Shown here piece after piece: positions 9,698 through 53,035 of a DNA stretch of 64,000 nt (the first letter of the stretch is position 1; the number at the start of each line of letters is the position of its first letter). The stretch lies in NCBI GenBank assembly GCA_039000515.1, contig JBCFYV010011135.1:29541876-29605875 (forward strand). The letters run 5' to 3'. The stretch comes from Timema cristinae. Lineage: Eukaryota; Arthropoda; Insecta; Phasmatodea; Timematidae. The translations under genes and the position numbers were made by a program. The notes under the pieces are model-generated. The model did no database searches. It saw nothing but the letters and a program-made list of their open reading frames with translations, and was not told the origin of the DNA.

Positions 9698-9843
9698 ATG
9701 ATGGCAAAAGAGCCCCGACACTCAATTCCCAACACCCTATCAGATTCGTTATACTTGTATGGCTTTGGATGTGAACCCAACATTTTGTCATTCAACGAGA
9801 ATGTTTTGGATTACTTTGAATGGACAACTCGGAAATACATGTT
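9698..9843 (+). CDS. ASCC3-like exon 1 (initiator, N-terminal arm)
   Basis: Opens with Met-Met and ends at a TT|GTAAGT donor in phase 2. An acceptor-like TTTAG ends at 9686, only 11 nt before the ATG, so an upstream non-coding 5' UTR exon is likely. Encodes about 48 residues ending WTTRKYML, the least conserved part of the protein. The following exon aligns close to the ASCC3 N-terminus, which supports this as the true start. Confidence 0.7.
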
Positions 9844-10754
9844 GTAAGTTTTGTTGTACACAACATTATGACTTTATTCTTGTCATACACATGTTTCCCG
9901 GTAAGGGTGTACAAAGCTTCGAAACAACACAGCATTGATTTCGCTTCGAAAAAAATTTCAACTTTAAGCTCTGCTGATAAAAATATTAACAGCTAAAATA
10001 CTAAATTTATGTTCAATTACTGCCATTATGAGTTGTTTTGTACATTACAAATTTATTCAAATTGAAAAAAAAAAATCTGAAGTAAATGAATTACATGTTG
10101 TTATAGAAGCCTTATTCATCAGATTGAAACAAAATACAAACAACTGTGCAATAAAACATTTTTCAAACAATTTTAATGCATATAGGAATTTAAATAGCCA
10201 CAATATAATATTTTTTCAAGCGTGAAGCAACTAACAAAAAAATATTCAAACTTCAATTTGACTTTGAAAATATTTCAAATATTCCTATTTGATTTGAGTT
10301 TGTTTCAAATCGAAAGAGTGGACTTTGCACACCCCTACTCTACGGTAAACAGTCTTAGTAACCGGAGACTTTAGTAGTCTACATTAAAAGCACATGTATT
10401 CGGTAACAAACCCGACTGAGGCGGTGTGTCATGCCCATATCAACAGTCAATGTTGATACTAAAGAGGTCAACCATGAACAACACTCAAGGGTGACCTGGT
10501 GGTCTAGGGGTATGGTGTCAGACTTCTATGCTGGCGGCCGGGGTTCAATCCTTGGTCCAGGCACAGATATATCTGATTACCAAACCCTTCCTTCCCCTCT
10601 GACAAGACATCTTGTGAATGTGTGGAACGCCAGTCCTCCACCGTGGTTCGGATTCCACGTTAAACTGTAGGTCCTCCATTTCATCTCACAATCACCCTAC
10701 CATTACTCATTAGCGTAAGTGCGTATAACCCGAACGGGTAGTAAGACGCGGTGC

Positions 10755-10790
<36 letters not shown>

Positions 10791-13700
10791 CAACAACACT
10801 CAACATAAGCATGTAATAGTATACAGCTCAAACCAGATGTCTTAGGAGCCTCTTTCATTTTCATGTGGCGATATCAACATTTGTTGAATATCTGTGAAGG
10901 ATATTCTGGAATTTAATGACAACTTTTCCTCTTCATTATAAAAGTTTCTCATCTAATGCCGCTGTGATCATGACAAATATTCATCAACTGTTGATATCAC
11001 CGTGTGAAGATGATTAAACTAAACATATTGATTGATGCGATATTTTATTTGTTTTTGATATTAAAAGATGGCAAAAATACTCAACTTAACTCACACATCC
11101 AATCCATTCTATATTACCTGCCTCGGTGGTGTAGTTGGCTAACACGCTTGTTGTGTTGAGCTCGACTGCTGAGGATGGGGAGATCGAGGTTCAAATCTCG
11201 GTCGGGTGAACTGGGAGTGTTTTTTCCTTAAATGGTTTTCCACTCTCCCTGCATACAAATGCGGGTTTGCTTCCTCTAATTCAACCGTCCCAATTCCTAA
11301 TCCATTAGCGTAATTAGTACTTAAAGCGTATAACCCGAACTGGTAGTAAGACGCGGTGCTAGATAATAAAAACATTCTATATTAATGATGGAGAGCTGTA
11401 TGTTTCAGTGGTGAGTCTTGGGCGACCATTAAAGAGACCTTGGAATCGGAAGCTATATCAACAGCGACTATGAAACCATTGGTAAAGAAATACTATGACT
11501 TGGCGGGAGAAATTACTGGTTAGTACTTTTCATTATTTCTCATTATCTTGCGGTAATATATATATTGATAGAAGGTAAAGAAAGGAAAGATGGAAGGAAT
11601 CATATAAAAGGAACAAACACAATACAACTTTCGCAACGAAAATAATAACATAGTTACCCGCCTCGTTGGCGTAGTTGGCTAACGCGCTTGTCGTGTTGAG
11701 CTCGACTGCTGAGGATGGGGAGAATGAGGTTCGAATCTCGTTCGGGTGAACTGGGGGTGGTTTTTCCTGAATGGTTTTCCACTCTACCTCCACACAAATG
11801 CGGGTTCACTTCCTCTAATTCAACTTTCCCAATTCCTAATCCATTAGCGTAATTAGTACTTATAGCGTATAACCCGAACTGGTAGTAAGACGCGGTGCTA
11901 AAATAAAAATAACATAGTTCACACTTTACATTACTGCCACTGGACAAAGAGGTGAGGGCTGCCTCTAGAAGAAAATTGATCATTACCACCCAATCCCCCC
12001 TGACCTAGGTTTCATTCTATTGGAACTCATCAGAAGGGGAAACAAAAGAAAAAAAGAAAATTGTAAAAAATGATAGAAAACTTGAATAGGATAAACACAG
12101 TAAATGGACATTGGATGTGAATATAAATAATACATCTTTAAGGAAAACCTCTTTTTGCTTTATAAGGTAGTTTGTAATATATATTCGTAAGAATGTTTAG
12201 GAAAGGTGAACTATCGCTAACTGTTTATATTATTCTATTACCACATTTAACAAATGGTGATAGGGGAGGAGGGTTATTTAGCTAAACTAAATTATTAGGT
12301 GGAAGAAGATACCTTAAAGTAAATCCACAGTATTTATCTCTCAATTGTTAGTAGTGTAAAGTTATAGTTGTTTTTTTTAAATTGTAAAAGCCACATCGTG
12401 TTTGTCTCTTCGATTTATTCCCTCTCCTATCTCTTGTATTGCATTCCATGTCACCTTGTGGTGACTATAGACATGGCTGATTTTTTTTTTTTTTTTTTTT
12501 TTATGTGAGATTTGTATTTCCCTTTTCAAAATGATGAATTAACGGCTGACTGGCTACGAGGGGAAGTTTAGGTGTTGTGTCAATTCTAGTTTTAAGTCGG
12601 TTTGTAAGTCTTGTATCATTGTTGATTACAATCATAAGTTGGTGTTTCATAAACTGTCGTTAATATTGTCTTTATTACTGTATAAATATGATTTCAGGAC
12701 ACAGTGAACATATTACTCAGGACGAAACTGCAGCGTTTCTTTTCCGTTTGTATTTTAAAGAGCCCGGTTCCTTCCCCCGGACACGCATCTTACAGTTTGT
12801 ACTCGGGGAGGTCCCGGCAAGCACCGTCCATAAAGTTTTTCAGGTAATTATTGTCATAAAAATATTATTCTTTTGTTTTTTTAATCTCACTTTCTAATGA
12901 TTATATTAAAAAATCGAAATGGTCTAGCGATCAAAGTTGCTACGGATCCAGAGACCCCGGGCTCAATCGCCGGCTATTCCATAATTTTTCTGTTAAGCGG
13001 TTGATCTGGAACAACCTGGTCTGACAAAGCCTTGCAAGGACAAATGAGCTATTTGAATAAATAAGTGGCAGCTCTGGTTTAGAAAACTGATATTTACTGT
13101 TGGCCACATGACACCTGCTAGCCACTAATGTTGACCCCATCGTCGCTAACTCAGTCAATATAGTAAAATGGTTTTTAGCTTCCTCTGTCCTTCCACTACT
13201 CTTAACCCTTTATTCTCTACTCGCTCACTTGCTGTTATCTGCTCTTCTCGTCTCTTTCTTGTTTTCTCTTGAGGTCTATTTCCTCCATACCTCATCTTCA
13301 TCATTCTCCTTGCGTTTCTTTGTTTTTACATTTTCGTCACATTGTAATCGATATCGTAGTATAGTGGTCATCTAGGCCCCCGGCTGATGACATAGAGGTC
13401 CTGGGTTCAATTCTCCGGTGGTATCGGGGGATTGTTCTCGAAAAGGGAATAATTATCAGGGTCACCAGTTTTTGGTTAATTAGGCTTAAGTTAGGTTAAG
13501 ATCTTAATTGGCTTCATCTCGTCATATTCAATATCATCATTAGCTCACCTCATTGGGACATGGAAAGAGTCGGCAATGAAAGGATGTACTGTTAGTACAT
13601 TCGGGCGTCCTCTGGGCGACAGTACAGTGTTACCGGATAATCTTTCCGCAAACTGAACCATAGCTTCATATAGACCAGACCTGTAATTATTATTTATTAT

Positions 13701-16379
13701 GTCGTATTGTCTCAAAACCCAAGTAATTATATAAAGATGTCACAATATCTGTTTTTCTTTATTATATTCTAATTTAACATCAATTGTTGATTCTGAATAT
13801 CAATTTCTCAACATTTAAAATTTCAATCCTTTATTATACATTCTATCTCACAGTTAAATTTATCATTTATTTATATAAGCCTAGTCTACCATAATTTAGT
13901 TAAGTGATTCAAAAATGAGGTGGCCCAATGGCTAGATAATTTTATAATAAAGGAAATTGATAAAACTAAAGAAAGAGGAAAAATAAACTACTAAGAATAA
14001 GAATAAATTTGATGAAGAAAGCCCACCTAGGGAAAGAGGAAAGATGTGGGAAGAATCCAATGCACAAAGGTGACATCTTCTTCCTTTCTTCTGTCTTCTA
14101 TAGTAGAAGTAGTCACACACACATTTTACACACAAATATAATAATATTTCGGCATTGTTGCCTTTATCAAACACAAAGAAGAAGAGAGTACAAATAACAA
14201 ATAACACAATAACACAATAATAATTTAGTTAAGAAAATTCCTAAAACGAATTTATAAAAATAATCAGCTCAAATGAAACAGATTTACATATCCACAAGAG
14301 CCTTAGAACACTAAGTTAATGTTTTTTAATTAATTTAAAATTCGACAGTGCTAAAGTGAAGTGCCAAAAAAAACATCATAATATTGTGTATGTGTTTAAA
14401 TGCCAGAACTTTTCACTTAGCATTTTGGTGAAATCTAATTATTGAGGTAATCTTAACATTAAGATTGATTCACGATTCTTTCGATATCATTAAGAATCGA
14501 CGAAGAAAGCATACGCTTGTACATTTATACTCCATTCGCGGTAGGAATTACTCTCTGAAAGGTCTTTTTTCCTAACAATATCCTACTATATAATAGATTT
14601 CTGGTAGGGAAAAAGGCCTTTTCTACCGTGAACGGAGTATAGATGTATTGCCTTGTATTATGCGTGAAGAATGGCCCTGAGAATAGGATAACTCTTGAAT
14701 AACTCGGTGGTAAGATGATTGACACACTTAGTCAAGGATCCTGGGTTCGATTCACATTCCCAGATGTCATTTTTTTTTTAAATTCACAAATATTAGGAAT
14801 TTAGTTTGACAGATATTTTTATAACAATTGTCCTGTTCTAGAATATAGATAAGATAGCATCGTGTCTGCCGGATTATACCGTCGAGCGGTTACATCAATA
14901 TGATGTCCCTGGAAAGATTTTCGACGCTGACAACTGGATGAGTACTGACGAACTGACTTATGAGACGATTGATATCTCCAAGCTGGACGATGATTTGTTG
15001 GAGTTTGCGCCAGAGACTGATGATGAGTATGAAGCCGCGGTATCGAACGTTCTCGTCGCCTTGACCACCACACCCAATAAAAGTATATATATATTTTTTT
15101 GCATAGCATCCCTTAGGGTTATACCTCTATGTACAAACTACACTAATGTGTTAGGGATTAGGAAGGTTGAATTTAGAATAAGTGTAACCACATTTATGTG
15201 GAAGGAGCATGGAAAACCGTTTAGGAAAAACCACCCTTAGTAGACCCTACCGGGATTCAAACACCGATATTCTTGTCATCGGCAGTCCAGTTTATTGCAA
15301 GCGTGACTCTTTAGATTGTTTGACTAGCGAAGTGGGGTTTCACATTTTTAATCTAAATATTGACTAAAAGTAGATCCACATTAAAAAAATATATCTATTT
15401 ACTATATTTATATATATATATATTTATTGCAACTTAAAAGTAGTGAGGAGCTACTTGAATAAAGAAGTAGCGGCTCTGGACTAGTAAACTGAGATTAACG
15501 GATGGAGGTTTAGTTGTGTTGACCACATGACACACTTTATCACCAATGTTGGTGTTATCTTCGCCAACAGAAGGCAGCCACTCGGTCAATATAGCTTGTA
15601 TGCTGGCTGATACCATGTTTTTTTTTTTTTGTAGCTTATAAATAGACCTAATAAATGTGAATATTTTTCCCCTACAGCGGGGCATATCTCTGACACCAGC
15701 TCACCCTTCAGTTGTGCTCACAACATTGATGATATTGCTGAAGAGCTTCATTTCACTTTCTCGACGGACACTCGGAAAGAAGATATTGCTCCAATATCTA
15801 CGATGACCTTAGATGTATGTATTGAAACTATAACCAGGTCTAATACACTATTTTACGAATATAAATCTCTTAATTCGAATCTCCAATTTTTCTTTTAATC
15901 CCGAATCCGATTTTTGGAAATATTATGAACACAAGAGGAAATACAAATATAATAGAATTATCTTCACTGACAACTGTTTACAGGCTGTGTTTGGGGGGTT
16001 TGAGCAAAATGTCTCCATCTTCCTCTATGCTTACTTCAGTCTTTATACTTTAATTGCTTCTTAACTTTTATTTTTGTTACTTGCACACTTATTGTTATCC
16101 ACTCCTCCCACCTCTTTCTTGGCCTCCCTTGCAGTCTCCATCATTTGTTCTGTTAGGCTTTAAATCACTCCCTTGCACTCGTCTGGCATTTTCCTTCCAA
16201 ATCAGTCTTCTCTCACTTATTTATCTCCTGTTCCTTCTATTCTTCTCTACAATACTGACCAGATACTTGAAAATTTTTTGTTTTTGCCGCACCAGTTGTA
16301 TACCTGTCCTCCTTCCTTGTCGTGATCACCATCCCGCTCTTCCACCATTTCTTCCCGAACCTCCAGCTGCTCCTGTACT

Positions 16380-16469
<90 letters not shown>

Positions 16470-16546
16470 TATTTATTTACTAGAAAAGATGAACCAAACC
16501 CATAATATAACAATCCAAATCTTCTATTCTACCTTTTATTTATATA

Positions 16547-16598
<52 letters not shown>

Positions 16599-31500: not shown

Positions 31501-31514
31501 CTAAGGTCGTGAAT

Positions 31515-31604
<90 letters not shown>

Positions 31605-35073: not shown

Positions 35074-35104
<31 letters not shown>

Positions 35105-47100: not shown

Positions 47101-50100
47101 TTAAATCTTACTTGTGTTCGTCCCTTTTATATGTTTTGTATCCACCTTTCCTGTACGTTCTTACAAATATAACACATTTATATTTTTTTTAATTTACTGT
47201 TCATATTGTTTGCTAGAAATTTATTTATATTTATTTTAATTTTAAAGTATCATCAACTTTTATAATCATTAAAAATTGAATTGAAGTAACTTTCTCAACA
47301 AAATAATTTTTAAGAAAGCCCTCAAAACGTGCATGTGCAACTGCGCATAGAGGAATGGAAATGGAACAGAAAACGTGATCATGTAAAATTACACTAAGGA
47401 ATAATAAATGAAATACGAAACATTCAAATTTCTGATTGTTTAGTGTTTTTAAGTTTTCTTATAGGGTAAATTAGGTTACTGAAGAATATTTTGGGGAAAT
47501 ATCAACTTATTAAAACGTCAGTTTTATTAACTTTAATCAAGACAGTGTGGAAACTCTCTACAATAATGCAAACTGATAGTTGAAGAAGCCAAAATGAAAG
47601 GATGGTTAGGTTAGGAATAGATACAAACAAATAAAATTCTCTATTTCTTCTTAAACTTTTACACTTCCCACTTTTTCAAACTTCCACAGTCACACATTGT
47701 TTTAAATTTTTGGGAATATTTATTTCTCATATGAAGAGACATTAATGAAAAAGTAATATTCCTGAAAATTCAAACATATGTACAACCGTTAAAGTTTTGA
47801 AGAAGTGGGAAGTGTAAAAGTTTAAGAAGACAGAAGAGAGAAGTGTGTTTGTTCCTAACTATCCTTTCAGGTTGACTTCCTTCACTATCACTTAATTTAC
47901 ATCACTGTACAGTGTTTATACACTGTCTTATTGTACATTTACAAGCCATCATGCAATTATTCATTTTATTAACTTTGTTTTATAATTGTTAGTGTAATTA
48001 TATTGTCCTTGGTGACCTGGTGGTCTAGGGGTAAGGTGTCAATTTCCGTGCTGGAGGTCCGGGGTTCAATCCTCGGTCCCGGCACAGATTTATCTGATTA
48101 CCAAACCTTCCTTCACCTCTGACAAGATGTGTATTAATCACAACTTGTGAATGTGTGGAATGTCAGGCCTCCACCGTGGTTCGGATCCCCCGTTAAACTG
48201 TAGGTCCTTCATTTCATATCACAATCACCCTACTATTACACATTAGCGTAAGTGGTATAACCCGAATGGGTAGTAAGACGCGGTGCTAATAATAATAATA
48301 ATAATATATTGTCCTTAAAGACATGAGTGTTGAAATTATTTTCGATAATTTTTTTATTAGATTTTTATTTAACTTTTTTATTCAACTATTTACGCTTTAT
48401 AAAAATGAGTGTCATTCATATTTTAAGAACTTGTGTTTTAGTATACTTTTTAACATTTTAAAATCATAAATATACTCTTAACTCAGGAGCTTTTATAAAT
48501 ACTCGACTTGAATGAAAAAACCCAAGCTCACAGACCCCTGGTTAAAAGCATTGTTTTCTTTCAGTAGTCATAGTAAGGAGCTACCTTGGAGACTACCCGA
48601 CGAACGTGAGCTACCTCAGACTGCCCGTAAGGCCCTACTTCTTCTCCAAGTCTACTTGCTTCGTCTCCGAATGCCCGAGTCAGTCTTCACCTGTGCGGAA
48701 ATGAGATTCATGCTAGTCACGGCGAACTCTGTGTTGCAGGTACTCATCGGGCGACCGGCCCGCTCTTTCAATTCATAGCAGGGAAAATCAAATTGATGCA
48801 GGGGGGCCAGCGACTTGGGAAGGCTGGAAAATGGGGAAAAGTCAGGGAATTTGATCTATTTTCTGGAATTTACACATATTCGCTAAAATTAATACACAAC
48901 TTACAACAATACATTTGTATTATATTTGTAAGAAGATACAGGAAAGGTGGATATAAACATATGAAAGGGACGAACACAAATGGCTCTTATAGTGAAAAGA
49001 AGAACACAGTTCACACTTTACACCGCTGTCCCCTGGACAAAGAGATAATAGCTGCCTCTTGAAGAAAGTTGCTTATCACCTCCCAATCCCTCATACCTAG
49101 GTTTCATTATATCGGTAGCTGATCAGGAAGGAGTGTGAAAAGCGCTATGCAACATCCTAAAAGTAGAAATCTTAACGACATAAAAGGGAGAAAAAATAAA
49201 TTGGTAAAGGACAATATAAAGTGTGAACTGTGTTCTTATTTTCATTGTAAAAACCATATTGTGTTTGTTTTCTGTCTTCTATCCACCTTTCCTATACCTT
49301 CTTCAAAATATAATGCAATCAGACTGAGTTTCGAAATTTGAAGGTATATTGGAGATTCGGATTTGTAAAATGGTGTGTTCGACCCAACTCTAGTTTTTAA
49401 GACATATTTGAGGTTGTAGGCGATGTAAATTATGTAACACTCCATTAGTCTACTAACTGAGCAACTCATTAGAAATACTTGATCAAGTACGGTACCAAAT
49501 TCTGGTGGCGTGTTTAACACACATATTAATTTGTTCAACGTCTTTCATTCGGAGGAATAGCCTTTTAAATATTCCTACCCTGGGTATAATGTGGGTCTCC
49601 CCTTTCCCAGTGATGAATTAAAGGGCGGGGGGCTGTGTGTTGTCTCTTCTAGATTTAAGTTAGTTTATAAGTTGTGTGCTGATATAATCAGTTGGTTGAA
49701 AAAAAAAGGCACATTAAGTACCTTGAATAAAATATACAGTTGGGGTCTAATCCACAATTTTATGAATACAGATCTCCAATTTACCTTCGAATCTCAAATC
49801 CTAATCAGAATTTTGGAAATAAAGTTAAATGTAAGAGGAAACATAAAATAATATAAAATATAAATATAATTCTTTCATATATAAATCCATTATAACATTC
49901 ATACATTGAGTTAAGTGTTAAATTACTGGTCTGGGGTCTGGTTGTTTAAGTTTGTGCTTAACCACCAATAAGAGGTATTGGAGCTTCAAACAAATCTTTT
50001 TTTTTTTTTTTTTTTTTTTCTTTTTTTTTTCCTAAGTCTCGAATCCTAAATATTGTTAAGGGTCCGAGGATCCATCCCTAAACATAAAATAAATTGTATC

Positions 50101-53035
50101 TTAGATTTTCCTTGAATATCATCAGGATTGAAAGCGCTCGTAGCTAGTTTTAAAATGTTGGTACATGTTTACTTAACACTTGCAGGTGATGGTGTTATTT
50201 GTCAAAAGAACAAATTACTGAACACGCTCCTTCAAACCCTGCGGTTCCAGCAGAACATGGCCGCCGAGGTGTGGGGCGACGACAGCTTCTCAGAACTCCC
50301 TCAACTCACCCCCTCGCACATCAGCGTCCTTAGAAAACAGGACAAGTGTCCCATCACCTGTCTGACCGACATGGTCAAACACTTCGTGGGGAACTTGAGC
50401 GAGCTCACCTCGGTGCTCGGCCCGTGTCTTTCAAACAAACAAATTGGCGAGGTTTGATAATTATCTGATTATATATCTACTTATAGATTAAATATAGTAA
50501 GAAAAAGTCAGGAAGGAACTTATAGACACTAAAAAAACCTAGTTGTTTGCAGCCAACATTGATAACATTTTACCATATAATTACTAAATCCAGCAAAGGA
50601 AGTAACAATCAATGGAAAGGAACTCGAAAAGGTGGAAGATTTCTACTATCTAGGAAGTAAGATTACTACTAACAGTAAAATACAGGAGGAAATAAGACAT
50701 TTCTACACAACGTGGTTAAGGATATAATCTGGCGATGGAATATAGGGAAAGAAAACTTTGTTATTCAAGGAATATTATCATCGAAGATTGACATACGGCT
50801 CTGAAACCTGGGATATAGTAGATTGCAGACAGCAGAGAATGTAACAAGAAGAGGCCAGGAATGAAATAATTAGAAATTGTTTAAAAGTAATACCATTAGG
50901 TGAGACACTGAAGAGAAAAGTTGCTGTGGTAAGGTCATGTGATGAGAATGAGGAAGGACAGAATGCCTAAGAGAGCCTAACAGAACAAAGATAAGGTTAG
51001 AAGACCACGAAGGAAGGACATGGAAGCTAAGGGAGCGACTGGGGACATGTGTCTGAGGGAGAAGTTTGTAGAGATGGACAGGAATGGAAGATGATGTGTC
51101 GGACGACCCGCAGAAATGTCTGAGGATGATGGTGATAATTATTATTATTTTATTAGTAGAGGTCTGCGGAGCTTAGTTAATATCAATAGTGTTTCAAATT
51201 TTATATATATTTTTTTTTATTGATAACTCAAATCAAACCAAAGGTTTTAGGTTGTTGCAAAATCCTACAATGTGTGTAAAATATGTGAATATATTTTAAT
51301 AAAAATTCCTGCGAGGCAAAATAAATATTTGTTCCAGTCAACAAACAATAAAATAACCGGCGGAAGTAAAGAAAGTGGACTTTATTCGACGTTAAATTAT
51401 GATAGGAATAGCTTACCTCATCCAATTTGAGGTTCGTCGACAATGGGGGCCTATCTTGTGGGTTGCTGGGTTGGAGTAGAAGGGAATGGTAAACAACAGA
51501 CTAACTCACTCAGGGATATTCTTCGAACTCATGTTGTGGTTTCTTGATTAAAGAGGCCACTTTAGGGCCTGTAACACCCGAATCACACGCAAACAAAGAT
51601 TTGTGCACCCATTATGGCAGACACCCTATTTGAACCGAAAACAGTCATGTATTAATCACAACTTGTGAATGTGTGGATACGATCTCACGTAAACTGTAGG
51701 TCCTCCATTTCATCTCACAATCACCCTAACATTACACATTAGTGTAAGTGCGTATAACCCGAACGGGTAGTAAGACGCGGTGCTAATAATAATAATAATA
51801 ATAATATTACTACTACTACTAATAATAATATAATAATAATTTGTTTCTACTGGCTCTAACCCAAGGAATCTCATTTGATCCAGGTGTACGCAAAGCTATG
51901 CGCCCTGCCTCGGATGAAAATCGACCTTAGACTTAGACAAGGCAACAAAAGGTGGTTCCGACTCGGAAAGAGGCCATTAGCGATGAGTCCCCTGGGGGGG
52001 TACACCTTGGAGATCTCTTATTGGTCGTCTCACAGCTGGACCTTGCTAGTTAGCGGCACGGATGAACTGCTAGTGTTCAGGACATTGAATCCCGGAGCCT
52101 TAAGGAAGGAAATTCATCTCACTGCTCCGAAAGTTCCAGGTTTGTGGTAGTAATCAAAGGGAAAAAAGGTCGCCAAACGACTGTATTACATTGAAAGGAG
52201 GTGGTAGTGAAATTCATTTTCCATACAGGGGCTCGTTGTTTTTTTTAATTCACATATTTATAAAAGATGGGATATCACCTCCCTCGAATTCTATGGTATT
52301 AGAGAGATTTGTCATCGGTCATCATCACGAACAGTTCCCAGTCATTGGACTCTCCATCGCCTCCTTTCCTCCCACCACCTCTCCTCTCTCCTCCACACTC
52401 CTCCATACTCCCTTCGGCCATCTGTCCTTTGAGTAGCCTTTCCCTCTCTATTTGAGCTTTATAAAAATCTTAAAAAAAGTATCTCGAATACAATTTTGAA
52501 GATCTTTTAGCCGTGATCAACCTCTAGCCATAGTTCAATCTGTGTTTTACTCTCACCTGATTTACCCCGAAAATTACATAATTGTGAACTTTGGGGCCTA
52601 CAATTTTCTGATAAGTGACACCTTAGCTCAGTCGGTAGCATGTCTGTCTATTGAGCTAAGGGTCTCCAGTTCGATCACCGGCATGGCCGAAAAAAGTATC
52701 ATTGGTGGATTATGGGTTTAGCCTTTCACGGTGATAAATTAATGGCCGGGATACTGGATGTTGTGCCTGTCCTAGTTATATTATAAGACAGATGAAGCTA
52801 CGACAGGCCGGAAACAGTAGTGGATGTAAAGTTAATCATAAAAAGACTAATATTGACATCTCCAGTAAAAACTCCCCTCCAGCGGAACCACACTCCATTA
52901 TGTCCGGTCATGAGTGTAAAAGTGTTTGTTTTATTGTTGGTAGGTATCGCCACCATCTCTGTGCACCTGTTGGCCAAGCAACACGTGGGGCTGGATCGTC
53001 TCGTCACATTCAAGTTGGATGTCCTCCCAAATTGA
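9698..53035 (+). CDS. ASCC3-like tandem Ski2 pseudohelicase (28 coding exons, spliced)
   Basis: Spliced gene of 1,848 codons; human ASCC3 is about 2,200. Order seen: N-terminal arm (aa 1-260), RecA1 of cassette 1 (aa ~261-434), RecA2 (~435-691), winged helix and Sec63 (~692-1023), cassette 2 RecA1/RecA2 (~1024-1424), winged helix and Sec63 to a C-terminal FN3-like end. ASCC3 rather than SNRNP200 is favoured by the N-terminal block AAFLF, the Sec63 stretch [11 protein letters not shown] (ASCC3 has WVEDPTNDHIY) and the tail GLD-x-V near the stop. ASCC3 normally unwinds nucleic acid in the ASC-1 complex (alkylation repair, ribosome quality control). Catalytic motifs are lost here: Walker A is PLGTSKF and PTNHHKA, DExH is DDMS and NDVE, and the motif VI GRAGR becomes NRNIF and QTCSA. 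Exons are visibly more GC-rich than introns. Start chosen at tandem ATGs at 9698/9701 in a GCCG context. Function is inferred: an inactive scaffold or ASC-1 regulator; a recent pseudogene remains possible. Confidence 0.87.
10489..10791 (+). repeat. SINE family B, full length (tRNA-Glu-like head)
   Basis: Head GACCTGGTGGTCTAGGGGTA (box A) and GGGGTTCAATCC (box B) resemble tRNA-Glu. The body and the GTAGTAAGACGCGGTGCTAA tail with (TAA)n follow. Flanked by the 12-bp duplication AACAACACTCAA (10477-10488, 10792-10803). Lies in intron 1. Confidence 0.9.
11117..11372 (+). repeat. SINE family A, full length
   Basis: Head CCTCGGTGGTGTAGTTGGCT (box A) and GAGGTTCAAATCTCGG (box B), tail GTAGTAAGACGCGGTGCTAG. 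Flanked by CATTCTATATTA (11105-11116, 11373-11384). Ends about 36 nt before exon 2. Confidence 0.9.
11409..11518 (+). CDS. ASCC3-like exon 2
   Basis: Acceptor TGTTTCAG, donor G|GTTAGT, phase 2 to 1. Encodes [15 protein letters not shown] followed by [11 protein letters not shown], matching the ASCC3 N-terminal helix LGLTWKKIIKFLNEKLE. This segment belongs to the arm that contacts ASCC2 in ASCC3. Confidence 0.82.
11555..12440 (+). mobile_element. Inverted-repeat element E, interrupted by a SINE
   Basis: Left arm 11560-11655 (GGAACAAACACAATAC...), internal CCACTGGACAAAGAGGTGAGG (11938-11958), and a decayed right arm ending near 12440. The family consensus seen in better copies has long terminal inverted repeats starting TTATATTTGTAAGAAGGTA. 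A family A SINE splits the left arm. Confidence 0.65.
11656..11907 (+). repeat. SINE family A, full length, nested in element E
   Basis: Complete head, body and GTAGTAAGACGCGGTGCTAA tail. Flanked by AATAACATAGTT (11644-11655, 11908-11919), which lies inside element E. Confidence 0.9.
12460..12640 (+). repeat. SINE family C fragment
   Basis: Body remnants TTTCAAAATGATGAATTAACGG and GTCAATTCTAGTTTTAAGTC match family C copies elsewhere. A poly-T run at 12481-12502 precedes it. Immediately upstream of exon 3. Confidence 0.5.
12698..12843 (+). CDS. ASCC3-like exon 3
   Basis: Acceptor GATTTCAG, donor CAG|GTAATT, phase 1 to 0. Encodes [18 protein letters not shown], closely matching ASCC3 REAIESGAAFLFMTFHLKD. 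This is the strongest N-terminal evidence for ASCC3 rather than SNRNP200. Confidence 0.87.
13349..13690 (+). repeat. SINE family D (tRNA-Asp-like head)
   Basis: GTAGTATAGTGGTCATCTAG (box A) and GGTCCTGGGTTCAATTC (box B) resemble tRNA-Asp. The body shares CTCTGGGCGACAGTACAGTG and TCTTTCCGCAAACT with a second copy at 21745. Confidence 0.7.
13905..14220 (+). mobile_element. Retroposon H, copy 1
   Basis: Starts TGATTCAAAAATGAGGTGGCCCAATGG (tRNA box A-like TGGCCCAATGG) and ends in an (ACAATAAC)n-like tail. Flanked by the perfect 13-bp duplication TAATTTAGTTAAG (13892-13904, 14221-14233), so it moved by target-primed retroposition. Nearly identical to an inverted copy at 20140-20398. Confidence 0.75.
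14842..15082 (+). CDS. ASCC3-like exon 4 (acidic N-terminal region)
   Basis: Acceptor TGTTCTAG, donor AAAA|GTATAT, phase 0 to 1. About 80 residues with an acidic stretch ([17 protein letters not shown]), equivalent to the ASCC3 segment around FDMHDLDHFDELP. A minus-strand SINE remnant begins about 20 nt after the donor. Confidence 0.83.
15104..15340 (-). repeat. SINE family A (Leu/Ser-type head variant)
   Basis: Reverse complement of body (TTAGGGATTAGGAAGGTTGA) and of the box B region (CGGGATTCAAACACCGATAT). Degenerate copy in intron 4. Confidence 0.65.
15678..15814 (+). CDS. ASCC3-like exon 5 (short N-terminal linker)
   Basis: Acceptor CCCCTACAG, donor GAT|GTATGT, phase 1 to 0. Encodes [13 protein letters not shown] and a Thr/Ser-rich end. 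The next exon already enters RecA1, so roughly 200 residues of linker present in ASCC3 are missing here, or lie in an exon I did not recognise. Confidence 0.75.
15834..15965 (+). repeat. Dispersed repeat F fragment
   Basis: TCTAATACACTATTTTACGAAT and TTTTAATCCCGAATCCGATT match repeat F (complete copy at 32274). Ends before internal sequence. Confidence 0.55.
16381..16471. repeat. (CT)n and (TA)n microsatellite
   Basis: About 40 bp of CT followed by about 50 bp of TA repeats in intron 5. Confidence 0.9.
16472..16718. repeat. Inverted repeat with 47-bp perfect arms
   Basis: TTTATTTACTAGAAAAGATG at 16472 is matched by its reverse complement ending at 16718. Arms 16472-16518 and 16672-16718. 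The interior carries direct repeats of CAATCCAAATCTTCTATTCT and TA runs. Confidence 0.85.
17257..17475 (+). CDS. ASCC3-like exon 6: cassette 1 Q-like motif and Walker A
   Basis: Acceptor TTTTTTAG, donor AAG|GTAAGT, phase 0 at both ends. [12 protein letters not shown] aligns with ASCC3 [28 protein letters not shown] aligns with ENMLICAPTGAGKTNI. The Walker lysine (aa ~300) survives; the second Gly is Ser and the Mg-coordinating Thr is Phe. Confidence 0.9.
17665..17903 (+). repeat. SINE family A, 5'-truncated
   Basis: Starts inside box A (GTAGTTGGCTAACGAGCTTG) and is otherwise complete to the tail. Flanked by ATTTTGGGAATT (17653-17664, 17904-17915). Confidence 0.9.
18444..18735 (-). pseudogene. 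hAT transposase C-terminal (dimerisation) fragment
   Basis: On the minus strand: [64 protein letters not shown] and [15 protein letters not shown] (stop at 18444-18446). This matches the hAT/ZBED dimerisation domain (KYLxIPATSVxSERVFS). Two in-frame stops. Lies in intron 6. Confidence 0.85.
19182..19371 (+). CDS. ASCC3-like exon 7: cassette 1 motifs Ia-Ic
   Basis: Acceptor TATTTTTAG, donor G|GTAACT, phase 0 to 1. [13 protein letters not shown] replaces the motif Ia context VYVAPMKALAAE and the TGD motif is absent. [12 protein letters not shown] is a perfect family-type TTPEKWD motif, the only fully intact signature in this cassette. Confidence 0.92.
20007..20398. mobile_element. Retroposon H, head-to-head inverted copy
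   Basis: The 5' ~85 nt of H in plus orientation (20007-20092) is followed by ~50 nt of unrelated sequence, then a nearly complete minus-strand copy (20140-20398). The whole block is flanked by AAACTATGTAATTA (19993-20006, 20399-20412), so it is one insertion event. Its arms could form a hairpin of about 50-60 bp. Confidence 0.75.
20668..20914 (-). repeat. SINE family A
   Basis: Reverse-complement copy from TTAGTATCGTGTCTTAATAT (tail) to CACCAAGGCGGGT (head). Lies in intron 7. Confidence 0.75.
20918..21108 (-). repeat. SINE family A, Leu/Ser-type head
   Basis: Ends with CATGCAGCCACCAAAGTGGG, the reverse complement of a GGTGGCTGCATGGTCTAAG head. Directly adjacent to another minus-strand copy. 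Confidence 0.7.
21208..21468 (+). repeat. SINE family A
   Basis: CCCGCCTCAGTGGCGTAGTC head, box B GAAGGTCCGAATCTTGG, tail GTAGTAAGACGCTGTGCTAA. Confidence 0.8.
21745..22050 (+). repeat. SINE family D (tRNA-Asp-like), second copy
   Basis: CGGGTTCGATTTCTGGCCGG box B region, then TAGTTAGGCCTAAGTTA and TAATCTTTCTGCAAACT as in the 13349 copy. Confidence 0.65.
22214..22326 (+). CDS. ASCC3-like exon 8: cassette 1 motif II (DDMS)
   Basis: Acceptor TTGTTTTAG, donor CAG|GTAGGA, phase 1 to 0. [19 protein letters not shown] aligns with RLLILDEVHLLHEDRGPVL. DEVH becomes DDMS, losing the catalytic Glu and the His. The following helix ILARTRLQ matches IVARTLRQ. Confidence 0.88.
22497..22755 (+). repeat. 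SINE family C (tRNA-Lys-like head)
   Basis: TTGGCTCACTCGGTAGCGTA (box A) and CGGTTCGATTCCCGGC (box B), then the body ATGTGAGTTTAACCTTTCAC. Ends with a GATGTAAATTGG-type tail. Confidence 0.75.
22917..23162 (+). CDS. ASCC3-like exon 9: cassette 1 motif III to RecA2 entry
   Basis: Acceptor TAGGTCAG|C, donor AAG|GTGTGT, phase 0. The upstream TTTAG acceptor puts the exon in a frame that stops, so the one 5 nt downstream was chosen. [18 protein letters not shown] replaces the LGLSATLPN motif [17 protein letters not shown] corresponds to FRPVPLGQTFLGIK. Confidence 0.82.
23245..23455 (+). repeat. SINE family A, Leu/Ser-type head
   Basis: CCGTGGCCGCATTGTCTAAG head, tail GGTAGTATGAGGCGGTGCTA. Begins about 80 nt after the exon 9 donor. 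Confidence 0.7.
24432..24643 (+). CDS. ASCC3-like exon 10: cassette 1 motif IV and RecA2
   Basis: Acceptor TTTTGCACAG, donor AG|GTGAGC, phase 0 to 2. [18 protein letters not shown] aligns with VMVFVHARNATVRTAMSL (motif IV). [13 protein letters not shown] corresponds to FSIHHAGMLRQDR, with HHAGM changed to VHAEM. Confidence 0.9.
24812..25018 (-). repeat. Dispersed repeat F fragment
   Basis: CCTCGAATCCTTAAGGATATTC and CAATTATAATTATAGGAAG match repeat F in reverse orientation. Confidence 0.55.
25035..25250 (+). repeat. SINE family C
   Basis: CACCCTAGCTCAGTCGCAAG head and GGTTCGATTCCTAGC box B, then the family C body. Ends about 100 nt upstream of exon 11. Confidence 0.75.
25349..25457 (+). CDS. 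ASCC3-like exon 11: cassette 1 motif V
   Basis: Acceptor TTGACAG, donor TAT|GTGAGC, phase 2 to 0. [19 protein letters not shown] aligns with NLVENLFSNGHIKVLVCTA. The AWGVNLPAH segment is IWEKEMSQV, so motif V is changed too. The segment after it is several residues shorter than in ASCC3. Confidence 0.9.
25931..26134 (+). CDS. ASCC3-like exon 12: cassette 1 motif VI lost
   Basis: Acceptor TTCATATTAG, donor GAG|GTGAGA, phase 0. [18 protein letters not shown] aligns residue for residue with ILDVMQIFGRAGRPQFDK, so QIFGRAGR becomes [20 protein letters not shown] and LPDLLNTE match ASCC3 IIITTHDKLSHY and LADNLNAE. Confidence 0.92.
26225..26940. repeat. 35-bp intronic satellite with palindromic core
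   Basis: About 18-20 tandem units of ~35 bp, alternating ACCTGATAATCAGGTGATTA and ATCCATTAATCGAACGATTA types, each ending GCACAATCGGCT. The first type has a near-palindromic core ACCTGAT-A-ATCAGGT. Units become indel-rich from ~26,540. Fills intron 12. Confidence 0.85.
26971..27181 (+). CDS. ASCC3-like exon 13: cassette 1 winged helix
   Basis: Acceptor TTGTTCCAG, donor G|GTTTGT, phase 0 to 1. [19 protein letters not shown] matches the winged-helix start IALGTVTNVEEAVKWISYTY. It continues with [13 protein letters not shown], equivalent to RKLDKAQMIRFE. The intron before it holds a 35-bp satellite. Confidence 0.9.
27222..27580 (+). repeat. Dispersed repeat F
   Basis: TAGAGTTGGGTTGAATCCCAT start, then AATTCAGTAAAGTGTTGAATT and the GGTTTCTGAACCACCAATAA block. 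Near-complete copy in intron 13. Confidence 0.65.
27605..27712 (+). repeat. SINE family A fragment
   Basis: GAGTGTGGTTTTCAACTCTC and AAATGTGGGTACACCTCTAA are family A body. The copy is interrupted at the Harbinger-like insertion. Confidence 0.6.
27714..28485. mobile_element. PIF/Harbinger-like non-autonomous element
   Basis: Ends GGGCCGGTCTTACAACTACT and ATCCAGGGATTATAAAACCGGCCC (read outward GGGCCGGTTTTATAATCCCT) are inverted repeats. They are flanked by TAA (27711-27713, 28486-28488), the Harbinger-type 3-bp target. No transposase. Confidence 0.7.
28510..28640 (-). repeat. SINE family C
   Basis: Reverse complement of body and box B (GGGAATTGAACCCATGACC) and of AGCTCAGTAGACA. Confidence 0.65.
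28891..29164 (-). repeat. SINE family B, full length
   Basis: Minus-strand copy ending GACCACCAGGTCACCC. Flanked by AAAGTTTGTAAGA (28878-28890, 29165-29177). Confidence 0.9.
29936..30087 (+). CDS. ASCC3-like exon 14: start of Sec63 unit 1
   Basis: Acceptor ATTGTTTCAG, donor GAG|GTATAA, phase 1 to 0. [19 protein letters not shown] aligns with [33 protein letters not shown] aligns with FAIVSKAEEFDQIK. A SINE begins about 29 nt after the donor. Confidence 0.9.
30117..30347 (+). repeat. SINE family A
   Basis: CCCGTCTCGATGGCATAGTTGG head and full body. Flanked by near-identical TTTACATAATGA and TTTACATGATGA. Sits just after the exon 14 donor. Confidence 0.85.
30395..30620 (+). repeat. SINE family A, degenerate
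   Basis: GAGATCAAGGTTCGAATCCC box B, then CATGCAAATGCCGGTTGATTA. Body diverged, with C-rich runs. Confidence 0.6.
30683..30843. mobile_element. Inverted-repeat element E, internally deleted
   Basis: AGAAGAAGGTATAGGAAAGA at the left and TACCTTCTTCCAAATATAAC at the right are the inverted ends. Internal CAGTTCACACTTCTGCCACT matches full copies. Confidence 0.65.
30878..31010 (+). mobile_element. Retroposon H, truncated old copy
   Basis: GAGGTGGCCCAATGGCTAAAT and TGTGGGAAGAATCCATATC match H with many substitutions. Confidence 0.6.
31103..31200 (+). repeat. Dispersed repeat F fragment
   Basis: TTAGAGATGGACCGAATCCACT then TCTTGAATCCGAATCTAC, the 5' end of repeat F. Confidence 0.55.
31520..31604. 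repeat. (TG)n(GA)n microsatellite
   Basis: About 30 bp of TG followed by about 50 bp of GA repeats in intron 14, 116 nt upstream of exon 15. Confidence 0.95.
31720..31899 (+). CDS. ASCC3-like exon 15: Sec63 unit 1 helical bundle
   Basis: Acceptor TGCTGTGTAG, donor GAG|GTAATT, phase 0. [17 protein letters not shown] corresponds to VREEEIEELDTLLSNFC, and [19 protein letters not shown] to KINILLQTYISRGEMDSF. A 5'-truncated SINE is inserted 14 nt after the exon end. Confidence 0.9.
31914..32080 (+). repeat. SINE family A, 5'-truncated, 14 nt from the exon 15 donor
   Basis: Starts CTCGGTCGGGTGAACTGGGG and runs to the tail. Flanked by ATTACTCGTAT (31903-31913) and ATTGCTCGTAT (32081-32091). Confidence 0.88.
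32274..32728. mobile_element. Dispersed repeat F, complete, with inverted ends
   Basis: Starts TTAGAGCTGGTTCGAATACACT and ends with GATTCGGATTCGTAAAATAG and TGACACAACTCTA, the inverse of the start consensus TAGAGTTGGGTTGAATCCACT. This makes F a MITE-like inverted-repeat element of about 450 bp. Confidence 0.65.
33188..33403 (-). repeat. SINE family A, Leu/Ser-type head
   Basis: Ends CATGCAGCCACCAAAGCGGG on the plus strand; body AATGAGGAAGATTGAATTTA. Confidence 0.7.
33810..33982 (+). CDS. ASCC3-like exon 16: Sec63 unit 1, shortened
   Basis: Acceptor [29 protein letters not shown] matches the ASCC3 helix AARIVRALFEIALRKRW. After CGQFGS the helix-loop-helix portion is largely missing. The donor is inferred at GC|GTCAAG because it restores phase with exon 17 (phase 2); a second candidate at TTA|GTATAA would not. 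Confidence 0.75.
34043..34258 (+). repeat. SINE family A, Leu/Ser-type head
   Basis: CCACCTTGGTGGTCGCATGG head, GAGGTTCAATCCCAGTCGGG box B, tail AGTAGAAGGCGCGTTGCTAT. Lies in intron 16. Confidence 0.7.
35065..35305 (-). repeat. SINE family B, head truncated
   Basis: (TTA)n tail first, then the minus-strand body, ending before the tRNA head. Flanked by the 14-bp duplication AACATATGTTGTTG (35051-35064, 35306-35319). Confidence 0.9.
35439..35550 (+). CDS. ASCC3-like exon 17: Sec63 unit 1 FN3-like
   Basis: Acceptor TTTTTTTAAG, donor CAG|GTGATA, phase 2 to 0. [19 protein letters not shown] with [10 protein letters not shown] aligns with WNDQVHGTVGEPWWIWVED and DHIYHSEYF. This match is diagnostic of ASCC3. 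Confidence 0.88.
35932..36172 (+). repeat. Dispersed repeat F abutting exon 18
   Basis: TAGAGTTTGGTTGAATCCAC start to CTGTAATTATAATTGGT. Ends about 26 nt before the exon 18 acceptor. Confidence 0.65.
36198..36366 (+). CDS. ASCC3-like exon 18: end of Sec63 unit 1
   Basis: Acceptor GGTTAAG, donor G|GTATAG, phase 0 to 1. [20 protein letters not shown] aligns without gaps to [30 protein letters not shown] matches FQHLILPERH. A dispersed repeat ends about 26 nt upstream of the acceptor. Confidence 0.9.
36378..36652 (-). repeat. SINE family C
   Basis: Reverse complement running from the ATC-rich tail through AACATCCAGTCCCCTGGCTG to CAACTGAGCTCTGGTGTCGG (head). Begins 12 nt after the exon 18 donor. 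Confidence 0.75.
36862..37105 (+). repeat. SINE family A, degenerate
   Basis: CCTGCTTTGCTGGGTGAATG head and GGTGGTAAGATGCTGTGTTA tail. Ends about 120 nt before exon 19. Confidence 0.6.
37228..37448 (+). CDS. ASCC3-like exon 19: cassette 2 Walker A (PTNHHKA)
   Basis: Acceptor TCAATATAG, donor AAG|GTATGG, phase 1 to 0. [16 protein letters not shown] matches PLPITALGCKAYEALY. The Q-like motif FNPVQTQIF becomes [29 protein letters not shown] aligns with NVLLGAPTGSGKTVAAELAI: both P-loop glycines and the Thr are lost, Lys (aa ~1078) is kept. Confidence 0.93.
37478..37902. mobile_element. Inverted-repeat element E, full length
   Basis: Left arm AGAAGGATAGAAACAAATGA through CACTGGACAAAGAGGTAATGG is repeated inverted at 37752-37902 (CCATTACCTCAGTGTCCAGTG ... 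CTTACAAATATAA). Arms of about 150 bp with a ~110-bp centre. Starts 30 nt after the exon 19 donor. No protein. Confidence 0.8.
38140..38862 (+). pseudogene. LINE 3' coding end interrupted by a SINE
   Basis: [59 protein letters not shown] and RWEEKIKHA precede the [24 protein letters not shown] follows it (38790s-38850s). Single stop after MEK. Same LINE region that gave rise to the 62-bp satellite. Confidence 0.8.
38545..38772 (+). repeat. SINE family A nested in the LINE
   Basis: GTCCGAATGGTCTAAAGTGT head, GGGGTTCGAAACCCAGTCGA box B, tail AGGTAGTAAGACGCGATGAT. Confidence 0.7.
38960..39181 (+). CDS. ASCC3-like exon 20: cassette 2 motifs Ia-Ic lost
   Basis: Acceptor GCTTTTCAG, donor ACG|GTCGGT, phase 0. 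[20 protein letters not shown] corresponds to AVYIAPLKALVRERMDDWKV. TGD is replaced by ALS and TTPEKWD by TSRHWWP, so cassette 2 loses the motif that cassette 1 keeps. Confidence 0.87.
40354..40638 (+). repeat. SINE family B, full length
   Basis: AGGTGACCTGGTGGTCTAGA head to (TAA)n. Flanked by GATACCAAGAT (40343-40353, 40639-40649). Confidence 0.9.
40845..41115 (+). repeat. SINE family C
   Basis: CATCTTATCCCAGTCGGTAACG head, CTGGGTTCGAATCTTGGC box B, and body to GATGGATGTAA. Confidence 0.78.
41267..41839 (+). CDS. ASCC3-like exon 21: cassette 2 motifs II-IV
   Basis: Largest exon (191 codons), phase 0. Acceptor GTTTCGCAG, donor [19 protein letters not shown] replaces LIIDEIHLL (motif II). 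[19 protein letters not shown] aligns with [36 protein letters not shown] aligns with [31 protein letters not shown] corresponds to GIGMHHAGLHERD. The domain order is intact. Confidence 0.95.
41944..42058 (+). repeat. SINE family A 3' fragment
   Basis: TGGTTTTCCCCTCTACCTCC to TATTAAGACGAGGTGCTAAA. Confidence 0.7.
42948..43202 (-). repeat. SINE family A, full length
   Basis: TTTAGCACCGTGTCTTACTA (tail) to CACCGAGGCGGGT (head), well preserved. Confidence 0.85.
43570..43748 (-). repeat. SINE family C
   Basis: ACACAACATCCAGTCCCCGG to CTACCGACTGAGCTGAGATG on the plus strand. Intron 21. Confidence 0.7.
43976..44161 (+). CDS. ASCC3-like exon 22: cassette 2 motifs V-VI lost
   Basis: Acceptor CGGTTTTAG, donor GAG|GTATTA, phase 0. 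[20 protein letters not shown] aligns with [36 protein letters not shown] replaces LQMMGRAGRPQFDDQG, removing both motif VI arginines. The region is unusually cysteine-rich (four Cys within 11 residues). Confidence 0.93.
44872..45192 (+). CDS. ASCC3-like exon 23: cassette 2 winged helix
   Basis: Acceptor TTCCCTCAAG, donor CAG|GTCGGT, phase 0. [17 protein letters not shown] matches [37 protein letters not shown] aligns with IMNPSYYNLGDVSHDSVNKF, a strong family-specific match. Confidence 0.93.
45245..45507 (+). pseudogene. LINE 3' coding fragment, frame-broken
   Basis: Nucleotides such as GAGATAGTAGAGGAAGCAAG and ATGGTCATGTAATG match the LINE segment at 38200-38430, with several frameshifts. 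Immediately followed by a SINE tail. Confidence 0.7.
45508..45592 (+). repeat. SINE shared 3' tail fused to a LINE fragment
   Basis: TTCTAATCCATTAGCGTAAT to GTAGTAAGACGCGGTGCTAA(ATAAT)n, joined directly to LINE sequence. No target duplication seen. Confidence 0.75.
45991..46178 (+). CDS. ASCC3-like exon 24: start of Sec63 unit 2
   Basis: Acceptor TTTTCCCCCAG, donor AG|GTACAG, phase 0 to 2. [20 protein letters not shown] corresponds to [36 protein letters not shown] aligns with LSDAEEYTDLPVRHNE. Confidence 0.92.
46978..47175 (-). mobile_element. Inverted-repeat element E, half copy
   Basis: AATGAAATCTAGGACAGAGGATTGGG, CCATTAACGTTTTGTCC and CCACCTTTCCTGTACGTTCTTAC match the right half of E. 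Confidence 0.6.
47597..47875. repeat. Fold-back repeat in intron 24
   Basis: Left AAACTTTTACACTTCCCACTTTTTC (47650s) and right GAAGTGGGAAGTGTAAAAGTTT (47800s) are inverted, extended outward by GAATAGATACAAACAAA and TTTGTTCCTAACTATCC. Confidence 0.65.
48011..48305 (+). repeat. SINE family B, full length
   Basis: GGTGACCTGGTGGTCTAGGG head to (TAA)n. Flanked by ATATTGTCCTT (48000-48010, 48306-48316). Confidence 0.9.
48565..48739 (+). CDS. ASCC3-like exon 25: Sec63 unit 2 helical bundle
   Basis: Acceptor TTTCTTTCAG; the first base completes a Ser codon begun in exon 24. [20 protein letters not shown] aligns with HTKAHLLLQAHLSRAMLPC. The CAG|GTACTC donor leaves phase 0. The downstream junction is problematic (see exon 26). 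Confidence 0.85.
48928..49318. mobile_element. Inverted-repeat element E, full length
   Basis: TTGTAAGAAGATACAGGAAAG at left; CCTTTCCTATACCTTCTTCA at right. Internal CCTGGACAAAGAGATAATAG. Confidence 0.75.
49338..49395 (-). repeat. Dispersed repeat F end
   Basis: GGAGATTCGGATTTGTAAAATGG to CGACCCAACTCTA, the inverted end of F. Confidence 0.55.
49575..49705 (+). repeat. SINE family C fragment
   Basis: AATGTGGGTCTCCCCTTTCC and TGATGAATTAAAGGGCGGGG. Confidence 0.55.
49738..50078 (+). repeat. Dispersed repeat F
   Basis: TACAGTTGGGGTCTAATCCAC start, CTTCGAATCTCAAATCC, then a ~40-bp T run at 49998-50030. Ends shortly before exon 26. Confidence 0.6.
50209..50451 (+). CDS. ASCC3-like exon 26: Sec63 unit 2, uncertain acceptor
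   Basis: [20 protein letters not shown] aligns with [40 protein letters not shown] matches LPELIHACGGKDHVFSSMVE. The strongest acceptor (TTGCAG ending at 50185) would need phase 1 input, but exon 25 supplies phase 0 and would read into a stop. The weaker acceptor CAAAAG ending at 50208 restores frame and was used. Donor GAG|GTTTGA, phase 0. Confidence 0.7.
50585..51130 (+). pseudogene. LINE 3' coding fragment (third type)
   Basis: [20 protein letters not shown] then [20 protein letters not shown] and [20 protein letters not shown] follow the C-terminal order of RTE-like RT proteins (FKYLGS ... LTYGSETW). Frameshifts downstream. Intron 26. Confidence 0.78.
51648..51812 (+). repeat. SINE family B, 5'-truncated
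   Basis: TGTATTAATCACAACTTGTG to GTAGTAAGACGCGGTGCTAA(TAA)n. Ends 70 nt before exon 27. Confidence 0.8.
51884..52139 (+). CDS. ASCC3-like exon 27: C-terminal FN3-like domain
   Basis: Acceptor TTGATCCAG, donor G|GTTTGT, phase 0 to 1. [17 protein letters not shown] aligns with AWNFLSHLPVINVGISV, and [19 protein letters not shown] with [38 protein letters not shown] corresponds to DEGWFLILGEVDKRELIALK. The ASCC3 insertion between these blocks is short here. Confidence 0.87.
52613..52832 (+). repeat. SINE family C in the last coding intron
   Basis: GTGACACCTTAGCTCAGTCGG head, CCAGTTCGATCACCGGC box B, tail AGTAGTGGATGTAA. Confidence 0.8.
52944..53035 (+). CDS. ASCC3-like exon 28 with stop codon
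   Basis: Acceptor TTGTTGGTAG, completes a Gly codon. [20 protein letters not shown] aligns with RYIYTLYFMSDCYLGLDQQY, and [12 protein letters not shown] ends where the family FN3-like strand ends. The longer ASCC3 tail is absent. TGA at 53033-53035. Confidence 0.85.

Follow-up and report, generated by a model that had tools for sequence, protein, structure and literature searches.

Can a whole tandem helicase persist in a genome after the motifs of both its motors have degenerated? The question is raised by a 64,000-nucleotide stretch of Timema DNA (the window), in which a sequence-only reading had described a full-length ASCC3 paralog with two catalytically dead helicase cassettes and had proposed that it serves as a scaffold or dominant regulator of the ASC-1 complex, or as a nucleic acid clamp. 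Our analysis indicates that the locus is probably a coding gene for a tandem pseudohelicase that arose from ASCC3 in Timema, in which both cassettes are degenerate and the protein framework has been kept beside a motif-intact copy on another contig (C1).

Gene structure

The starting point was a comparison of the window's open frames with another contig of the same genome (assembly size, 1.29 Gb), which yielded a collinear ASCC3-like chain among repeats. The gene was modeled with a home-made spliced aligner, guided first by the canonical ASCC3 of C1 and finally by a predicted T. cristinae protein, P0001. The P0001-guided alignment comprised 29 blocks from 9698 to 53032, followed by the TGA; with one repeat-like block (17669 to 17722) set aside, 28 exons remained (Table 1), and the 28-exon collinear protein of the sequence-only reading was thereby re-derived. 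All 27 introns have GT-AG borders, which is weak evidence, as the aligner requires AG and favors GT. The description of the exons as GC rich relative to their surroundings also held: GC content was 0.506 in exons and 0.341 in introns, and each exon exceeded the intron that follows it (27/27). The canonical ASCC3 gave values of 0.530 and 0.335, again with 27/27. The linker encoded by canonical exons 6 to 9 (containing PNYGCQV and YPHVYDS) mostly had no counterpart between window exons 5 and 6.

TABLE 1 Exons of the ASCC3-like gene in the window and the features that they carry
Exon	Position	Strand	Features
1	9698..9843	+	start ATG; N-terminal arm, ASCC2-binding helix not recognizable
2	11409..11518	+	ASCC3 N-terminal plug-like region; both flanking introns match canonical ASCC3 in position and phase
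3	12698..12843	+	ASCC3 N-terminal plug-like region
4	14842..15082	+	spliced alignment
5	15678..15814	+	joins exon 6 in phase (0 to 0)
6	17257..17475	+	cassette 1 RecA1; degenerate motif I TPLGTSKF 17356-17379
7	19182..19371	+	intact motif Ib TTPEKWD, 19332-19352; motifs Ia and Ic lost
8	22214..22326	+	motif II DDMS 22255-22266 (canonical DEVH)
9	22912..23162	+	motif III lost; frame broken by one base against the T. cristinae protein
10	24432..24643	+	cassette 1 RecA2; motifs IV (VIIFTANK) and IVa (RVHAEM) altered
11	25349..25457	+	motif V altered (DLIWEKEM)
12	25931..26134	+	motif VI altered, 25973-26005
13	26971..27181	+	cassette 1 winged-helix region; Pfam PF23445 on P0001 698-740
14	29936..30087	+	start of cassette 1 Sec63 module; Pfam PF02889 on P0001 782-1045
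15	31720..31917	+	Sec63 module; donor after 31899 also possible
16	33810..34026	+	Sec63 module; frame broken by one base against the T. cristinae protein
17	35439..35550	+	Ig-like domain of cassette 1
18	36198..36366	+	Ig-like domain and inter-cassette linker
19	37228..37448	+	cassette 2 RecA1; degenerate motif I APTNHHKA 37371-37394; 221 bp, the canonical exon length
20	38960..39181	+	cassette 2 motifs Ia, Ic, and Ib altered
21	41267..41839	+	motif II NDVE 41285-41296; III ALSGAT and IV VVFVPST partly kept; IVa VHSGM
22	43976..44161	+	cassette 2 motifs V and VI altered; motif VI 44105-44137
23	44872..45192	+	cassette 2 winged-helix region
24	45991..46178	+	second Sec63 module
25	48565..48739	+	second Sec63 module
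26	50186..50451	+	second Sec63 module; frame broken by one base against the T. cristinae protein
27	51884..52139	+	C-terminal Ig-like domain
28	52944..53035	+	C terminus, stop TGA 53033-53035

The block that was set aside is an 18-residue in-frame segment of the T. cristinae model and is identical in the window; as similar peptides were found in repeats elsewhere, it may be an exonized piece of a transposon. A 24-base in-frame micro-exon candidate (25839 to 25862; DFAQVYES), which has AG/GT borders, is absent from the T. cristinae model. It was dropped in favor of that model, as was a junction at 48692/50186 between exons 25 and 26. A donor-like site (CAG/GTAAGT) lies ~25 bases past the TGA of exon 28.

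Other copies in the genome and the T. cristinae ortholog

The window gene lies on scaffold C7570. A canonical ASCC3 was found at C1:16315953-16352422, with intact motifs in both cassettes (PTGAGKT, DEVH, and QIFGRAGRPQF; PTGSGKT, DEIH, and QMMGRAGRPQY) and with human ASCC3 (8alz_B) as its best PDB match. The C1 model used 28 of 29 exon rows, with a last row of 12 bases omitted and the start and stop codons not placed. This motif-intact copy rules out the window gene as the only ASCC3 of the organism and bears out its description as a paralog. A gene on C12, SNRNP200 type by its inferred name, was 81% identical to a millipede protein, likewise named BRR2 type by inference, over 1,418 aligned codons, the part of the gene that was fetched first. 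When the whole genome was searched with the cassette 2 region of the window protein, 13 candidates were scored, and all 11 matches lay at the window, C1, and C12 loci.

A protein search returned a T. cristinae "SEC63 domain-containing protein" (A0A7R9CVY4; P0001) with 100% query coverage at the top of 28 proteins, followed by a bee ASCC3 at 26%. P0001 differed from the window protein at 29 of 1,894 aligned residues (98.5% identical), with 5 more residues unaligned or at frame breaks, a match that assigns the window to a Timema. A second protein search, with residues 1040 to 1500, returned P0001 and 36 others at 22 to 29% identity (37 proteins). In a fragment search with a 392-residue piece, aimed at other species, none of 6,305 candidates passed. 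No third species with the gene appeared in the protein collection searched, in which, by our estimate, relatives below ~45 to 50% identity could be missed, and viral contigs searched with a canonical fragment yielded no relative.

The T. cristinae record also bears on the reading of the locus as an assembly chimera or contamination. The assembly is indel prone and contains duplicate contigs, which such a reading could draw on, but the same full-length protein stands in the T. cristinae record (unless both assemblies share the error), and translated repeat pieces of the window recur at the C1 and C12 loci. We regard an artifact of this kind as extremely unlikely.

Descent from ASCC3

Identity to the window protein was 26.2% for the canonical Timema ASCC3, 25.5% for the bee, 25.1% for the nematode, and 24.7% for the human guide protein. 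The BRR2-type proteins P0006 (24.0%) and P0034 (23.2%) fell below the ASCC3s by a small margin. A multiple alignment was built from the window, canonical, and human guide sequences and 12 of the 64 returned proteins (P0001 to P0004, P0006, P0008, P0029, P0033 to P0035, P0040, and P0046), with P0001 omitted from the tree. The window protein was placed beside insect ASCC3 with 51% support, on a branch of 2.9 substitutions per site, against 0.21 for the canonical Timema ASCC3.

Introns were compared in the P0001-guided model. There, 19 of 28 introns match canonical ASCC3 introns in both position and phase, each with a residue distance of zero; the earlier reading had nearly all junctions keeping phase. 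The frame is not perfectly open, with three one-base breaks that are discussed below. Where the SNRNP200-type gene could also be compared, 11 of 18 introns are common with ASCC3 and 1 of 18 is common with SNRNP200. This intron sharing rules out a BRR2 paralog, a point on which sequence identity and Pfam are weaker. A processed retrocopy is likewise ruled out by the introns common to canonical ASCC3, and these shared introns point to a DNA-level duplicate.

Pfam detected DEAD (two stretches), Helicase_C, SNRNP200_wHTH (one stretch), and Sec63 (two stretches) on P0001; together with the collinear spliced alignment, these matches give tandem RecA1-RecA2-WH-Sec63 cassettes. The BRR2-type families PF18149 (PWI) and PF21188 were not found in P0001 at an E value of 0.01, a weak result, as the bee ASCC3 (P0002) shows PF18149 below the cutoff. 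Judging from the compared genes, an intron-bearing ASCC3 was duplicated at the DNA level; the C1 copy kept its motifs, and the window copy lost most of them.

Degenerate helicase motifs in both cassettes

To describe the two cassettes, we compared eleven motifs per cassette with canonical ASCC3. In cassette 1, where SKF stands for the GKT of motif I and DDMS for the DExH of motif II, motif I lacks its last glycine and its threonine, and the motif II glutamate has become an aspartate. Motifs Ia (LVSSEV), Ic (HLISC), and III keep no invariant residue, and motif VI keeps 1 of 10, an arginine. In cassette 2, the corresponding triplet and tetrad are HKA and NDVE, the motif II aspartate is missing, and motifs Ia and Ic read VSPEGP and ALSEK. 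Motif VI, QxxGRxGR in the active form, reads KSLNRNIF in cassette 1 and RMIQTCSA in cassette 2. The motifs quoted in the sequence-only reading were recovered in both cassettes, including the loss of motif III in cassette 1 and the alteration of motif VI in both, but its account of wholesale replacement was too broad: motif Ib of cassette 1 is intact, and in cassette 2, motif III keeps 2 of its 3 invariant residues and motif IV keeps 3 of its 4. The T. cristinae protein shows the same motif states except for one residue each in motif V of cassette 1 and motif Ib of cassette 2; a third difference is the residue at the frame break in motif III of cassette 1.

In human ASCC3, aspartate-to-alanine changes in motif II of both cassettes are reported to leave negligible DNA-stimulated ATPase activity (PMC10076317). 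As cassette 1 of the window protein keeps the motif II aspartate but not the glutamate and has lost the motif I threonine, we infer from its motifs that hydrolysis has been lost, and the same reading of motifs extends catalytic death to both cassettes. The human C-terminal cassette has been described both as inactive or largely dispensable (PMC7608686) and as an ATPase (PMC10076317); given this dispute, the loss in cassette 2 is less striking than that in cassette 1.

The motif I lysine is present in both cassettes, and cassette 1 also retains the first aspartate of motif II, motif Ib (TTPEKWD), and a single arginine of motif VI. Weak ATP binding by cassette 1 is therefore possible. These residues would suit a residually active or regulated helicase that works as a slow switch and not as a motor, with ATP bound by cassette 1 and nucleic acid contacted through the intact motif Ib. 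The substitutions in motifs I and II, the emptied motifs Ia, Ic, and III, the near-complete loss of motif VI, and the missing motif II aspartate of cassette 2 all speak against such a protein, which we consider improbable.

Frame breaks and assembly indels

Three exons of the window gene (9, 16, and 26) contain one-base frame breaks, all of which the predicted T. cristinae protein spans. No stop codon was present in the window exons as read in the P0001-guided alignment. The canonical ASCC3, which lies within C1:16290001-16370000, has eight one-base frame breaks, of which the one in exon 8 may be a splice-phase artifact, and no stop.

For an estimate of assembly error, we used a SEC63-like gene (named from its translation) with one long open frame, which is present on three contigs (C7598, C133, and C341). 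Contigs C7598 and C341 differ by one mismatch and eight one-base indels in 8.7 kb, and the C133 copy is ~0.45% diverged (38 mismatches in 8,505 alignment columns between two haplotype contigs of this individual). These contigs are uncollapsed haplotypes with assembly indels. The SEC63 indel rate predicts 2.6 breaks for the window gene, where 3 were observed; 2.9 for the canonical ASCC3, which has 8 (P = 0.011); and 2.0 for the 1,418 codons of the SNRNP200-type part, which have none. The window breaks are thus unremarkable, and we did not accept them as proof of a pseudogene, since duplicate contigs of SEC63 show a similar rate of one-base indels.

Long-term constraint and recent change

Neutral simulation over 1,475 of ~1,880 codons (leaving out the three frame-break exons and exons 17, 27, and 28) produced a mean of 64 stops and a minimum of 49 at decay to 30% identity and a mean of 46 and a minimum of 35 at decay to 46% identity (20 runs each). 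The same 1,475 window codons contain none. We then counted residues invariant among five ASCC3 sequences (canonical, human guide, P0002, P0003, and P0033). The window protein keeps 190 of 417 such residues outside the motifs and 31 of 108 inside them (P = 0.0015 by Fisher's test), with 18 further nonmotif columns being gaps or unknown. The difference was also seen when only the RecA domains were considered (102/241 outside versus 31/108 inside; P = 0.017) and in a block permutation that respected motif lengths (P = 0.034). At noninvariant sites of the helicase region, 207 of 1,036 residues were identical. Neutral decay from a working copy would lead to equal loss inside and outside the motifs; as the loss was unequal, the frame appears to have been constrained more than the motor, and long-term neutral drift is disfavored by these counts. 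The earlier claim that the pattern is not one of drift is upheld for the long term only.

Recent substitutions give a different picture. Of the 29 differences between the window protein and P0001, 26 align to canonical ASCC3, and 7 of these fall at sites common with it, against an expected 27%, so there is no depletion. The 29 differences in 1,894 codons correspond by our estimate to ~0.7% neutral nucleotide divergence, to be set against the 0.45% between the two haplotype contigs of this individual. No figure for neutral divergence in Timema was found in the passages of the literature consulted; the Timema phylogeny is given an age of 30 million years (PMC8865771). Present-day neutrality is possible for a T. 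cristinae individual; for another species of Timema, constraint would be likely. Nanopore-based assemblies have been described for two Timema species (PMC11957559 and PMC11691646).

The absence of depletion, the three frame breaks, and the very long branch (2.9 versus 0.21) would fit a gene that was long kept as a coding pseudohelicase and is now drifting in this species. On the other hand, the T. cristinae protein crosses all three break sites, the number of breaks is close to that expected from the C7598/C341 duplicates, the canonical ASCC3 itself has eight breaks, and no exon contains a stop. Ongoing decay is an unlikely alternative to the coding pseudohelicase.

Candidate partner surfaces and nucleic acid contacts

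What the pseudohelicase might bind was considered in light of work on human ASCC3. There, stable binding of ASCC2 is reported to need the N-terminal arm, and a plug-like domain (residues 59 to 142) is thought to be autoinhibitory (PMC7608686), while the C-terminal cassette is bound by TRIP4, the zinc finger of which rests on RecA1 (PMC10076317). Exons 2 and 3 of the window gene encode a recognizable plug-like region; the ASCC2-binding helix is not recognizable in the protein, with R5 aligning to R and R11 to Y. Six DNA-cross-linked residues were identified in human ASCC3 (PMC10076317). Four of them (M546, Y988, Y1821, and Y1822), which are M, F, or Y in the canonical Timema ASCC3, are replaced in the window protein by I, H, S, and N. 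Neither of the other two (C2101 and Y2135) is conserved even in the canonical Timema protein.

These replacements disfavor the clamp without ATPase activity that the sequence-only reading had offered as one function. The overall fold is retained (DEAD, Helicase_C, and Sec63 on P0001) and motif Ib of cassette 1 is intact, which count in favor of a clamp, but neither the conserved cross-linked residues nor most nucleic acid motif residues have been kept, and we judge a clamp to be very improbable.

The best-kept domain is RecA1 of cassette 2, with 67 of 193 residues identical, against 356 of 1,357 elsewhere in the helicase region; the excess (P = 0.016, uncorrected) does not survive correction for seven domains. 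Between the human and canonical Timema proteins, cassette 2 RecA1 (73%) ranks below cassette 1 RecA1 (76.5%) and cassette 2 RecA2 (81%) and above the remaining domains. For PF06221, the zinc-finger family of TRIP4, the genome yielded a single match (G000:C7570:36165113-36165229), which shares its scaffold with the window gene at a distance of ~6.6 Mb.

Proposed mechanism and its meaning

By sequence, the window copy has lost the motifs for ATP hydrolysis and nucleic acid threading in both cassettes and has kept the dual RecA/winged-helix/Sec63/Ig frame. In our proposal, it would act by way of its protein-binding faces, either scaffolding partners of the ASC-1 complex or competing for them. We propose the RecA1 face of cassette 2, where the TRIP4 zinc finger docks in human ASCC3, as the docking side because RecA1 is the best kept, whereas the ASCC2 helix is not recognizable and the linker before cassette 1 and the DNA contact residues are not kept. 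TRIP4 or ALKBH3 could then be held away from, or brought to, the active helicase. This mechanism is put forward tentatively, as one possibility. More speculative still is its specific form, in which the Timema two-cassette pseudohelicase would compete with active ASCC3 for TRIP4/ALKBH3 and so tune ribosome rescue or alkylation repair. If true, ASCC3, a core quality-control helicase, would have a built-in dominant negative that acts in trans.

An entire tandem helicase that is maintained with its two motors disabled beside a motif-intact paralog would naturally separate ASCC3 as a scaffold from ASCC3 as a motor. The two Timema genes are a ready pair for testing which ASCC3 surfaces matter without ATP hydrolysis. 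Furthermore, Timema includes sexual and parthenogenetic sister species, in which the fate of such a gene can be followed.

Comparison with known systems

Both pseudohelicases and the pairing of an inactive Ski2-like cassette with an active one are already known. Like ASCC3 (Slh1 in yeast), the window protein has a collinear tandem Ski2-like architecture and an N-terminal region, and its gene shares 19 of 28 introns with the Timema ASCC3, to which human 8alz is the closest solved structure. Unlike ASCC3, it has lost most motif residues in each cassette and is missing the greater part of the linker that precedes cassette 1; its ASCC2-binding helix is not recognizable, and its identity to ASCC3s is ~25%, whereas the canonical Timema and human guide proteins are 57% identical.

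In SNRNP200/Brr2, the C-terminal cassette is described as an inactive Ski2-like cassette that acts as an intramolecular cofactor beside an active one (PMC10076317). One cassette is dead there, whereas both are degenerate in the window protein, with 31 of 108 motif residues left. Of the 52 motif residues of the C-terminal cassette, 34 remain in the BRR2-type protein P0034 and 33 in P0006, against 15 in the window protein. The pseudohelicase Utp25 is reported to have a helicase fold with dispensable motifs (PMC9539457), but it is a single DEAD-box-like core, whereas the window protein is tandem Ski2-like and so far found only in Timema. PriA of Deinococcus radiodurans, a helicase-family protein called a pseudohelicase in the title of its report (PMC4504706), is bacterial and of a lineage unrelated to the window protein. 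Among the titles and abstracts listed on ASCC3, paralogs, inactive helicases, and pseudohelicases, none described an inactive ASCC3 paralog, and we claim nothing wider.

Repeats in and near the gene

An intron of the gene contains a tandem array (26226 to 26693) of 35-, 70-, and 139-base units with a palindromic look (TGATAATCAGGTGATTAT). Downstream of the gene, a minisatellite at 55258 to 57348 consists of ~34 copies of a 62-base unit with 94% matches. It keeps long spurious open frames (612 amino acids at 55234 to 57072), and the strong GC skew of the 54- to 58-kb region is located at this repeat.
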